64,000 nt of DNA from Cellvibrio sp. pealriver. Lineage in GTDB: Bacteria > Pseudomonadota > Gammaproteobacteria > Pseudomonadales > Cellvibrionaceae. How positions within the stretch are numbered: position 1 is the first letter of the stretch; every line of letters starts with the position of its first letter. The notes beneath the pieces were generated by a model, which saw nothing but the letters and a program-made list of their open reading frames with translations, did no database searches and had not been told where the DNA came from. Both the position numbers and the translations under genes were made by a program. This document shows, piece by piece, positions 25,733 through 39,694 of this stretch. The stretch spans positions 3,856,395 to 3,920,394 of the forward strand of contig NZ_KQ236688.1 of assembly GCF_001183545.1 (NCBI RefSeq). The letters run 5' to 3'.

Positions 25733-26608
25733 TTAGGCGTTATCGCGCAGAGCCTGAATACGGGCTTCCAGCGGTGGGTGGCTGGCAAACAGGTTGCGCA
25801 CACCGCCGCTGATACCAAACGCGCGCATACTGCTCGGCAGCGGGCTTTCCACTCCGGCATTGGTTTCAGCTTGCAGGCGTTGCAAGGCGCGGATCATGGC
25901 GCCGCGGTCAGCGAGCGTTGCACCGGCATGGTCGGCACGGAATTCGCGATAGCGTGAGAAAGCGGCGACGATCATTGAGGCGAGGAAGCCCAGCACAATT
26001 TCAGCCACCATGGTCGCGATCATAAAACCAAAACCGCGGCCACTTTCATTCTTGAGCAATACACGGTCTACGAAGTCGCCGATGATACGTGCGAAGAACA
26101 TCACGAAGGTGTTTACCACGCCTTGAATCAGACTCAGGGTAATCATATCGCCATTGGCAACGTGGCCGATTTCGTGTGCCAGTACGGCTTCCACTTCATC
26201 GCGTTCAAAGCGTTGCAGCAGGCCAAGGCTCACCGCAACCAGCGCATCGTTACGATTCCAACCGGTCGCAAATGCGTTGGATTCCTGCGCGGCAAACACA
26301 CCGATCTCAGGTGTCTTGATACCGGCTTTTTGGGATAACTTGGTCACTGTATCAACCAGCCATTGTTCATCCGCATTGCGTGGTTGCTCGATGAGCTGGA
26401 CACCCATGGTGCGTTTTGCCATCCATTTGGACAAAAACAGCGAAATAAAGGAGCCGACAAAACCGAACACGGCGCAAAACACCAGCATGCTTGATAAATC
26501 CAGCCCGCCTGCTGTGCGATAGTTACCCACACCCAGCAAGCTCAACACTATACCTGCCACAACCATGACAGCGATGTTGGTTAATAAAAACAAGCCAATG
26601 CGTAACAC
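25733..26608 (-). CDS. htpX: Membrane zinc metalloprotease HtpX
   Basis: 291 residues, M48 family. I place the start at GTG 26606-26608, because GGGAGAG lies 6-8 bases upstream and the resulting [15 protein letters not shown] matches other HtpX N-termini; the in-frame ATG at 26623 overlaps that ribosome site. Motifs are two N-terminal membrane helices, the zinc site [13 protein letters not shown], two more helices, and [13 protein letters not shown] with the third ligand. It degrades misfolded inner-membrane proteins. It heads the htpX-htrA-Rieske run. Confidence 0.93.
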
Positions 26609-26763: not shown

Positions 26764-26791
26764 AAGAAAAATGGCCGCCACAAGGGCGGCC
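26764..26791 (-). terminator. Intrinsic terminator of the putative small RNA
   Basis: Minus-strand GGCCGCC-CTTGT-GGCGGCC stem (26773-26791) followed by ATTTTTCTT. It lies about 155 bases upstream of htpX, so it does not terminate a coding gene unless the cyclic-nucleotide-binding transcript reads through. Confidence 0.8.
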
Positions 26792-26920
26792 CAAGCAACC
26801 GTGTTAGCCGAGAGACCTTCGGAGAGGAAAGCCCCAAGGGGGTGAGTAGAGCCATTAACCGACTTGCAGGGCGATTAAAGATTCCGCTCAACTGCTGTGC
26901 GGAAGATACTGTGCAGCAGT
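26764..26920 (-). ncRNA. Putative Fur-repressed small regulatory RNA (RyhB/PrrF type)
   Basis: About 157 nt on the minus strand, between the cyclic-nucleotide-binding gene and htpX. It has its own sigma-70 promoter, Fur-like boxes, a 5' stem-loop (CTGCTG/CAGCAG arms at 26914-26919 and 26892-26897) starting at the predicted first base, a C-rich middle with CACCCCC that could pair with a ribosome site, and a GC-rich terminator. The only frame through it would start at a TTG inside the -10 box and has an implausible composition. It fits an iron-starvation RNA. The identity is inferred and I recall no named homologue. Confidence 0.65.
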
Positions 26921-26926
26921 GAGTTA

Positions 26927-26955
26927 ACAATAATCGTTCTCATTAGCAAGGTCAA
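26927..26955 (-). promoter_or_regulatory. Sigma-70 promoter of the putative small RNA
   Basis: TTGACC (26950-26955) and TATTGT (26927-26932) on the minus strand, separated by exactly 17 bases. The predicted first base is near 26920, exactly where the 5' stem-loop begins. Confidence 0.65.
26929..26944 (-). promoter_or_regulatory. Fur box overlapping the -10 element
   Basis: Minus strand AATGAGAACGATTATT closely matches the AATGAGAATnATTATT form of Fur sites. It covers the spacer and -10 of the small-RNA promoter, the classical repression position. Confidence 0.6.
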
Positions 26956-26962
26956 GCTTTTT

Positions 26963-26977
26963 TGAGAAATATTCTCA
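26963..26977. promoter_or_regulatory. Second Fur-like inverted repeat
   Basis: TGAGAA-ATA-TTCTCA is a perfect 6-bp inverted repeat, flanked by ATT to give AATGAGAATATTTCTCAA on the minus strand. It lies just upstream of the -35 and about 34 bases from the first box. Confidence 0.5.
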
Positions 26978-26988
26978 TTTGAGGTGGT

Positions 26989-27786
26989 CTAGTTTGTAAA
27001 TTGTCCTTTTGACTGCAGCAGCTGATTGTTCAGTTGATTAATTTTGGCGGCCATTTCTTCAATCAGTCCAAGGCAGATTTGTGGTTGGTGATCAATCAGT
27101 TCAATGAATTCCTCTTTGCGCACTGCAAGTACTGTGCACTCATTCGTGGCCACAACCGAGGCCATACGCGGCTGGCGGGTAAAAACGGCAAGTGCACCGA
27201 ATATTTCGTTGGCGTGGATCTCGCCCACTTTGATGCCGTCGCAAACAGCATCGGCTGAGCCTTCAAGCAGTGTATAAACCCTGTCAGCGGTATCGCCCTG
27301 CTGGATAATCGTTTCCCCTTTACTGAAATGCAAAAAACCGGCAGAGGGTTGGAACGCCGTGCGTAATTCCTGGGTTAATGCTTGCTCCTGATAGCTGATC
27401 ATGCACAGCAGCATGTAAGCCCAGTTGCGTTGTGATTTGAGGTCACTATTGGCTTGGGCGACCAGAGTATCGCGCTCATAGGCCACGAGTTTGATCGGGC
27501 TTGTGCAACTGAATTGGCCACAGGGTAGGTTGAGAGAGCGCGGCAGGCCAATCAGGTCTCCCGCCTCGTAATGCATGACCAACTTGTTTTGCAGGTAGTA
27601 ATCCACCTGACCCTCGGTAATCAAAAATACGCGGGTCAGTGGTGCATCGGCAAAAATGTCGCTGTTGGCATTCACCTCAAAGGGTTCATCTGCGGGTGAG
27701 GTTTGGGAGCACAAAAGTTCGGTCAGACCACGCAACTTGGTGGCCAGATCCGACATAAGGTCAGACTGTTTGGTTGGAAGATACAT
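26989..27786 (-). CDS. Protein with two cyclic-nucleotide-binding-like domains
   Basis: 265 residues; the start at 27786 has GAGGGG 4 bases upstream. The first CNB-like domain (about 35-130) is degenerate. The second (about 150-250) keeps FSKGETIIQQGDTADRVYTL, VGEIHANEIFGALAVFTRQP and RMASVVATNECTVLAV, but lacks the RxA ligand arginine context of a strict cAMP site (QPRMASV is close). No HTH, kinase or membrane segment follows, so it is not a CRP-type regulator. It is probably a signalling adaptor of unknown partner. Confidence 0.75.
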   Translation of the reverse strand: MYLPTKQSDLMSDLATKLRGLTELLCSQTSPADEPFEVNANSDIFADAPLTRVFLITEGQVDYYLQNKLVMHYEAGDLIGLPRSLNLPCGQFSCTSPIKLVAYERDTLVAQANSDLKSQRNWAYMLLCMISYQEQALTQELRTAFQPSAGFLHFSKGETIIQQGDTADRVYTLLEGSADAVCDGIKVGEIHANEIFGALAVFTRQPRMASVVATNECTVLAVRKEEFIELIDHQPQICLGLIEEMAAKINQLNNQLLQSKGQFTN

Positions 27787-38362: not shown

Positions 38363-39694
38363 ATGGGCTCATCTGATTTGCAAGCATTTCGCGCGCGCAT
38401 TTTGCATTTTACTTCCGCACCGGATATTCACACCGGTGCGGGTGTTGAATATTTTGATGATGGTGTGTTGTTGGTTGAGCGCGGTTGTGTAAAAGCACTT
38501 GGTCGCGCAGAGGATCTTGCGCGGCAAGGGTTGGATTTACAATCCTGCCGGCACTACCCCGATTATGTGTTGATGCCGGGGTTTATTGATACGCATGTTC
38601 ACTATCCGCAAACGCGGGTTATTGCCTCCTATGGCGAGCAATTGCTGGATTGGCTGAATGATTACACCTTTCCTGCTGAACTGCAGTTTTCTGATCCCGA
38701 TGTTGCAACGCAAGCCGCGCAAGAATTTTTGCAATTATTGCTGCAAAACGGCACTACAACCGCAATGGTTTACACCAGCGTCTTTGCGCAATCGACCCAT
38801 GCCTTTTTTTCTGCTGCCGAAAAAATGAATTTGCGTATGATTGCGGGCAAGGTAATGATGGATCGCAACGCGCCGGCAGGGCTTCTTGATACGCCCTCAA
38901 GCAGCGAAGCGGAATGCCGCGAATTAATTGAAGCCTGGCACCATCACAAGCGTTTGCATTACGCGATTACACCGCGCTTTGCTCCTACCAGCTCCCCGCA
39001 GCAACTGGCAATTGCAGGTCAATTGTTGCGTGCGTACCCCAATCTGTATTTGCAATCCCATCTTGCGGAAAATACCCACGAAGTTGCGTGGATAAAAAAT
39101 CTGTTTCCGCAGGCGCGTGATTACGTGGATGTCTACGATCACTATGGATTATTGGGTGAGCGCAGTGTGTTTGGCCATGGCATACATTTAAGCGATGCTG
39201 AAATAGCGCGCCTTGCACAAACGCAAACAGGCATTGCATTTTGCCCGACGTCCAATTTATTTTTGGGCAGTGGTTTGTTAGATGTAGCGCGGCTGGAACA
39301 GGCAGGTGTTCCACTGAGTATTGCGACCGATGTTGGCGGCGGCACCAGTTTTTCACAATTGCGTACACTCTCGGAGGCGTACAAAATTTTGCAGTTACAA
39401 GGGCAGCGTTTGCATCCCTTAAAAGGTCTTTATATGGCGACGCTTGGCAACGCCAAAGCATTGAAACTGGATCACTTGATTGGCAATTTTGAAAAAGGCA
39501 AAGAAGCGGATTTTATTTTGCTGAATATGAATGCAACACCATTGCAGGCAATGCGCCAGAAAACGGCAACACAATTGATCGAACAATTATTCGCATTGAT
39601 GATGTTGGGCGATGAGCACAGTATTGCGCGCACCTACATCATGGGCAAATTGGCTTTTCGTCGCGCCGAAGGCGATGTTTTGTGGGTAGAGTAA
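38363..39694 (+). CDS. guaD: Guanine deaminase
   Basis: 443 residues, amidohydrolase family. It converts guanine to xanthine with zinc. Motifs are MPGFIDTHVHYPQTRVIASY, SHLAENTHEVAWIKNLFP, VFGHGIHLSDAEI, FCPTSNLFLGSGL and the metal aspartate in SIATDVGGGTSFS. It begins 3 bases after the esterase stop; no related purine genes are nearby. Confidence 0.92.
   Translation: MGSSDLQAFRARILHFTSAPDIHTGAGVEYFDDGVLLVERGCVKALGRAEDLARQGLDLQSCRHYPDYVLMPGFIDTHVHYPQTRVIASYGEQLLDWLNDYTFPAELQFSDPDVATQAAQEFLQLLLQNGTTTAMVYTSVFAQSTHAFFSAAEKMNLRMIAGKVMMDRNAPAGLLDTPSSSEAECRELIEAWHHHKRLHYAITPRFAPTSSPQQLAIAGQLLRAYPNLYLQSHLAENTHEVAWIKNLFPQARDYVDVYDHYGLLGERSVFGHGIHLSDAEIARLAQTQTGIAFCPTSNLFLGSGLLDVARLEQAGVPLSIATDVGGGTSFSQLRTLSEAYKILQLQGQRLHPLKGLYMATLGNAKALKLDHLIGNFEKGKEADFILLNMNATPLQAMRQKTATQLIEQLFALMMLGDEHSIARTYIMGKLAFRRAEGDVLWVE

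Follow-up and report, generated by a model that had tools for sequence, protein, structure and literature searches.

The interval between htpX and a CNB-domain gene of Cellvibrio sp. pealriver raises the question of whether it encodes a Fur-controlled small RNA and, if so, whether this RNA is related to a known one or is peculiar to its lineage. It was analysed within a 64,000-nt stretch of the genome (the window), to which all positions refer. The initial annotation had placed a complete unit at 26764..26979, a span that correctly runs from the terminator to an upstream Fur-type box, and had proposed it to be the iron-sparing RNA of the lineage. That interpretation is probably the best reading: the comparative evidence (a Fur-type promoter, a conserved structured RNA, matching sites in sodB, acnB and sdhC) supports it, and from this we infer expression, Fur control and repression. 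We consider the RNA, with a probability of about 0.78, to be the Cellvibrio ortholog of prrF, diverged far below the Rfam cut-off, which would repress iron-enzyme mRNAs under the control of Fur.

Promoter, Fur-type boxes and neighbouring genes

The RNA gene and its surroundings consist of the following elements.

26989..27786 (-), CNB-domain gene, the upstream neighbour (PF00027, 78.6 bits)
26963..26977 (-), upstream Fur-type box TGAGAATATTTCTCA (pattern scan)
26927..26955 (-), sigma-70-type promoter TTGACC-N17-TATTGT (promoter-pattern scan)
26929..26944 (-), Fur-type box AATGAGAACGATTATT overlapping the -10 (0 mismatches; position as in the PrrF model alignment)
26764..26922 (-), predicted sRNA of ~155 nt (start placed from the -10 and end from the terminator, both predicted)
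25733..26608 (-), htpX (M48 peptidase), the downstream neighbour (PF01435, 125.3 bits)

The promoter (26955-26927, minus strand) and the Fur-type box over its -10 (26944-26929, no mismatches) are as initially annotated, and the overlap of such a box with the promoter, a feature of PrrF genes, is thus present here as sequence. Promoter-like sites numbered two in 501 nt, against 0.4 expected in shuffles. The AATGAGAACGATTATT pattern, allowing up to two mismatches, gave two matches in 64 kb (0.57 expected; two or more in 9 of 100 shuffles); the second, with two mismatches at 39582-39597 (-), falls within a long coding frame and probably arose by chance. The further box annotated upstream does exist (26977-26963), but by pattern alone it is no better than chance: with up to three mismatches TGAGAATATTTCTCA returned four matches, two of them the same palindrome on both strands, and 1.51 were expected. 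By eye, a similar box is present in alignment rows L001-L013, degenerate in L015 and not seen in the Gilvimarinus row, L014.

Structure and conservation of the RNA

The predicted RNA can be divided into three stem-loops, a pairing core and a terminator.

26891..26920 (-), stem-loop 1, the predicted 5' end (fold prediction; helix 1, 95.7% of cells paired)
26843..26890 (-), stem-loop 2, with loop CCCUGCAAG at 26871-26863 (helix 3, 9 of 12 pairs changed on both sides)
26812..26835 (-), stem-loop 3, a hairpin inserted between the two halves of the PrrF core (helix 4, 84.7% of cells paired)
26793..26809 (-), conserved pairing core GGCUAACACGGUUGCUU, with CACGGUUG at 26803-26796 (alignments)
26767..26791 (-), intrinsic terminator, a 7-bp GC stem followed by a T-tract (pattern scan; helix 5, 96.2% of cells paired)

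The 5' hairpin begins at 26920, at about the first base set by the -10, and the GC-rich hairpin of the terminator lies at 26791-26773, both in agreement with the initial annotation; this hairpin accounts for two of the three terminator-like sites found (0.5 expected). Folded by itself, the sequence does not stand out (z -1.40; 17 of 200 shuffles equally good), and the structure is accepted as real because of its conservation and covariation. In an alignment of 15 relatives (14 Cellvibrio rows and one Gilvimarinus), 17 of 35 pairs were changed on both sides, against 7.2 +/- 1.8 in shuffles. In the proposed structure, which was partly derived from the same alignment and so is favoured by it, 91.2% of the cells pair, against 33-54% in slid versions. 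A 100-aa frame with a TTG start (26930-26628) overlaps the RNA on the same strand; the segment lengths in close relatives (159, 160 or 161 nt) argue against coding, and the segment appears to be non-coding.

Used as a query, a 311-nt stretch matched 17 of 57 genomes, its own included. A covariance model built from the 15 relatives found matches in 38 of 144 genomes of the family and in 15 of 21 of the genus, with a single match in the own genome. The RNA gene is located upstream of htpX in 14 of these 21 genomes (own included), and the fifteenth match, in G010 (30 bits), is a remnant lacking the promoter and most of the RNA. A CNB gene is found on the other side in 13 of the 14, within the 1.5 kb inspected, the exception being G015. 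With this synteny and the covarying helices, the unit proposed initially holds up to comparison, and on these grounds the RNA gene is judged to be real and conserved. At the curated Rfam cut-offs the 64-kb window returned no match. A scan of named genomes for the 3' motif gave 16 records: seven Gilvimarinus, five Cellvibrio, two Marinimicrobium, one gammaproteobacterial MAG and one Bradyrhizobium, the last in a context unlike that of the RNA.

Five genomes of the genus (G003, G004, G005, G008, G017) lack the RNA but have CNB and htpX as neighbours, and in an HtpX tree they form one clade (support 100/99) among RNA-bearing genomes. No convincing PrrF was detected elsewhere in the five; their weak matches to the PrrF model (L214-L218, E 0.017-0.77) show neither GGCUAA-CACGG nor a clear Fur box on inspection by eye. 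G010 seems to represent a separate loss. There the sRNA is reduced to its terminator region between CNB and htpX (L017, L144), as would follow from a recent loss or an assembly error. G020 (77% complete) was placed in neither group, its best HtpX match being only 61% identical and in another context.

Relationship to PrrF and other known RNAs

The initial annotation recognised no sequence match to RyhB or PrrF, and with respect to PrrF this kinship was wrongly denied. The best match of the PrrF model (RF00444) in the own genome is this very locus (34.7 bits, E 6.6e-4 for one genome; the next match scores 24 bits), and the alignment spans the whole model, from the Fur box and 5' hairpin through GGCUAA-CACGGUU to the terminator. 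The 3' part of the RNA reads GGCUAA-CACGGUUGCUU, aligning with GGCUAAUCACGGUU of PrrF. The score lies well below the Rfam gathering score of 90 bits, and stricter search filters missed the locus. Without its promoter the RNA reaches 14 bits (E 3.4), so that the Fur-box region contributes most of the score, and a match to the model is no proof by itself. At E <=0.05, PrrF was matched in 26 of 96 relatives, in one of them above the cut-off, while the weakest matches (about 26-28 bits, in other places) look like chance; none of the 14 control genomes matched the model.

The genomic neighbourhood is more informative than the model score, which is weak on its own. G066 and G101 each carry a PrrF whose core is unbroken, flanked as here by the CNB gene (51-53% identity) and htpX (68%). 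The G066 copy scores 67.3 bits, also below the 90-bit cut-off, and that of G101 was recognised by sequence, G066 alone having been scored. In four further genomes (G054, G036, G092, G041) canonical PrrF adjoins a CNB homologue (33-35% identity to that of the window), so that canonical prrF shares both neighbours with the Cellvibrio RNA in two genomes and the CNB gene alone in four. In Pseudomonas aeruginosa, we take PA4704 to specify a cAMP-binding protein; the name CbpA for it was looked for in literature passages and not confirmed. The prrF1 gene of that species is numbered PA4704.1 in passages of one paper (PMC5358918).

An independently arisen Fur-controlled sRNA could have come to resemble PrrF at this locus by convergence on a Fur box, a terminator and a short pairing motif, and both the 14-bit score of the promoterless RNA and the differences in length and central hairpins would fit such an origin. 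It is very unlikely, however, given the unbroken-core PrrFs in the same CNB-htpX slot of G066 and G101 and the existence of intermediates with both core halves (see below).

Orthology with prrF therefore remains the preferred reading. The Cellvibrio RNA shares with PrrF1/PrrF2 of Pseudomonas the Fur-type box over the -10, the 5' hairpin, a second hairpin, GGCUAA(U)CACGGUU right before the terminator, the neighbouring CNB gene and matching sites in acnB, sdhC and sodB. It differs in its length (~155 nt), in having one match in its own genome, at 34.7 bits against the cut-off of 90, in a core split by inserted hairpins (19-51 nt, versus 5-10 nt in canonical rows), in the absence of the U of GGCUAAUCACGG from 12 of 14 Cellvibrio rows, and in its CCUGCAAG loop. 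Because its score falls short of Rfam's threshold, we suggest listing it as an ortholog and variant of the prrF locus and not as a member of RF00444. Three canonical PrrF matches each were seen in other genera of the family, in G058 (L027, L051 and a third), G028 (L028, L052 and a third) and G076; those of G058 lie within ~800 nt, versus one split copy in Cellvibrio.

RyhB (RF00057) would do the same kind of job by analogy, but the score of the locus is 17.1 bits (E 1; cut-off 55) and the alignment consists mostly of the terminator; identity with RyhB was rejected. ArrF of Azotobacter vinelandii, likened here by description only, reportedly regulates sodB, according to the title of a work. It is described as an iron-repressed homologue of PrrF in passages of another paper (PMC2851614). 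Literature searches, with subscription journals mostly outside their reach, returned no work joining PrrF with Cellvibrio; those for Cellvibrio sRNA with Fur and for C. japonicus small RNA gave nothing on this RNA by title or start of abstract, and those for PrrF with related taxa or its Rfam distribution nothing on these genera among the entries inspected.

A split pairing core and a conserved loop

The distance from the UCUCC half of the core to GGCUAA is 5 to 7 nt in 12 of 14 canonical rows and 10 nt in G101; in the remaining row (G030) the first half was not recognised. The same spacer measures 19 to 51 nt in 25 of 26 rows of the Cellvibrio, Gilvimarinus and Marinimicrobium type, G018 having no recognisable first half. 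Where the script offered several candidates for this half, the choice was made by eye. The inserted stretch folds into one or two hairpins in all ten of the split examples modelled, whereas the two canonical examples hardly fold. Compared with UCUCCU...GGCUAAUCACGGUU of PrrF, the window RNA retains the second half without one U, and its first half, which reads CUCACC instead, is set apart by the inserted hairpin. Intermediates occur in Gilvimarinus and Marinimicrobium, in which UCUUCUCCU-like and GGCUAAUCACGGUU halves are separated by hairpins. The CACCCCC segment, proposed initially for target prediction, is not the ancestral core and is absent from rows G011, G015, G018 and the Gilvimarinus row G023; the prediction for the window RNA has its CUCA part paired and the C-run after it mostly unpaired, so that it may still have a role.

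The sequence CCUGCAAG in the loop of stem-loop 2 is invariant in all 15 alignment rows, and all 22 Cellvibrio and Gilvimarinus RNAs compared contain it, whereas none of 18 others does. The core-splitting hairpins (in Cellvibrio, Gilvimarinus and Marinimicrobium) and this loop can be read as two features that are new with respect to PrrF. In two loci of the Marinimicrobium alkaliphilum type (L086, L136), the inserted hairpin carries a second GGCUAAC copy around its loop, as if displaying a duplicate of part of the core.

As htpX starts ~160 nt after the terminator, on the same strand, and is adjacent in all 26 insert-type rows, the promoter could be seen as mainly serving htpX, with the RNA an iron-controlled leader ending in a partial terminator and not acting in trans. 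This is hardly probable at all, as the terminator is conserved (96.2% of its cells paired), htpX is missing from the 1.5 kb inspected in 9 of the 14 canonical rows, and it persists in the five genomes that lost the RNA.

Candidate target sites in sodB, acnB and sdhC

As a trans-acting prrF ortholog, the RNA would be expected to match the mRNAs of iron enzymes. In P. aeruginosa, sdh and acnB are PrrF-regulated (passages of PMC2851614) and SodB falls in low iron (passages of PMC8557868). Before any of their sequences was inspected, sodB, sdhC and acnB were chosen as genes known or expected to be targets of the PrrF type, and the site was first noticed in sodB, so that sdhC and acnB serve as independent tests. 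The start region was taken as 30 nt before to 8 nt after the start. Among RNA-bearing genomes of the genus, ACCGTG, which is complementary to CACGGU, is present there in 11 of 12 for sodB, 12 of 12 for acnB and 14 of 14 for sdhC; no start region was available for sodB of G002 and G015, acnB of G002 and G009, or sdhC of G010 (counted apart anyway). The exception is G011, which has the RNA and a sodB lacking the site. Among 189 background genes, taken from the window and from ten other stretches of the same genome, the motif occurs in one, or in six if any of the first four start codons counts; the liberal figure is the fairer one, since the strict count favours ATG and the start codon of acnB and sdhC is GTG. 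By eye, the sodB site region is better conserved than the sequence upstream of it. The combination CAACCGTG then ATG occurs 62 times in the own genome, against 35 in a reversed control, and three of the 62, including sodB, have a Shine-Dalgarno-like string at a fitting distance.

The predicted unpaired probability of CACGGUU, which is invariant in the RNA, is 0.45-0.91, and in joint folds with sodB and acnB all seven of its bases pair with the site; that with sdhC pairs elsewhere and leaves ACCGUG unused. The energy gains (sodB 11.6, acnB 13.3 and sdhC 10.0 kcal/mol) are not exceptional, being equalled or exceeded by 41, 15 and 54 of the 189 background genes, respectively. For simple core duplexes, 4 (sodB), 12 (acnB) and 0 (sdhC) of 44 window genes do as well. 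Ranking by modelled energy, whether of the core duplex or of the whole-RNA joint fold, thus speaks against the three as singled-out targets.

In the proposed mechanism, Fur with iron would sit on the promoter boxes and repress the RNA gene; in low iron it would leave and the RNA would be made. An Hfq-type chaperone may assist pairing of the GGCUAACACGGUUGCUU stretch. In sodB, CACGGUU(G) would then pair with CAACCGUG just upstream of the Shine-Dalgarno sequence; in acnB its partner would be AACCGUG, in which the GUG start codon lies, and in sdhC, the least supported case, the same region. Such pairing would block initiation and lower the synthesis of iron enzymes. The evidence in hand is that of conservation, structure, shared neighbourhood, core motif and conserved matching sites, from which we infer expression, Fur control, chaperone use, pairing and repression.

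Genomes without the RNA offer a comparison. In the RNA-less clade, ACCGTG is found in sodB of two of five genomes (G003, G008), in acnB of none, where AACT-GTG or AATT-GTG replaces AACC-GTG, and in sdhC of three (G005, G008, G017); G010 keeps its sodB and acnB sites. A single clade implies one loss, so that the comparison amounts to about one independent data point. Decay of the sites after loss would agree with their use as targets for acnB, partly for sodB and hardly for sdhC.

The RNA might also be a PrrF ortholog whose real targets lie elsewhere, the ACCGTG sites being conserved for other reasons such as start-codon context or ribosome binding. The site includes the GTG start codon in acnB and sdhC, joint folding energies do not set the three genes apart, and the sites kept without the RNA (sodB in G003 and G008, sdhC in three of five), after what was a single loss, would be explained. 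The rarity of the site in the background (1, or liberally 6, of 189 genes), its presence in all three preselected genes, the better-conserved island in sodB (by eye) and its absence from acnB in all five genomes without the RNA make this unlikely, and regulation of iron-enzyme mRNAs through these sites is preferred. In 18 of 19 genus genomes the sdhC leader carries CTGCCCGC, part of a likely hairpin beside the ribosome-binding site (L154-L172), and in 14 of 19 the longer CCTGCCCGCGATGGGC; this leader is also found where the RNA is missing.

Comparative significance and a possible two-armed mode of binding

If the assignment to prrF is true, the PrrF iron-sparing system extends to Cellvibrio and its relatives, and this would explain why Rfam cut-offs leave these genera empty (one of 96 relatives passes). 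The natural series of unbroken core, one- or two-hairpin core and lost RNA would allow study of how an interrupted pairing stretch still works, and of the fate of target sites once their regulator is lost.

One suggestion, which we regard as rather unlikely, is that PrrF has become two-fingered in this clade: the inserted hairpins would split the core into two short arms that bind a target such as sodB on both sides of a hairpin, forming a three-way junction, and the invariant CCUGCAAG loop would provide a further, independent seed for targets beyond those of canonical PrrF. As a bipartite target sdhC was rejected, as GGTGAG and ACCGTG are both present there but in the wrong order for the two core halves to pair at once. 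As a target of the loop ccmI (CcmI/CycH Pfam domains) was likewise discarded: one of four inspected matches (85 in total), upstream of ccmI, has a Shine-Dalgarno sequence and a long frame, and this match was not found in 18 of 19 other genus genomes bearing ccmI, the start not being located in the nineteenth, G020. The loop complement CTTGCAGG followed by ATG within 20 nt occurs 85 times in the own genome, against 11 in a reversed control.
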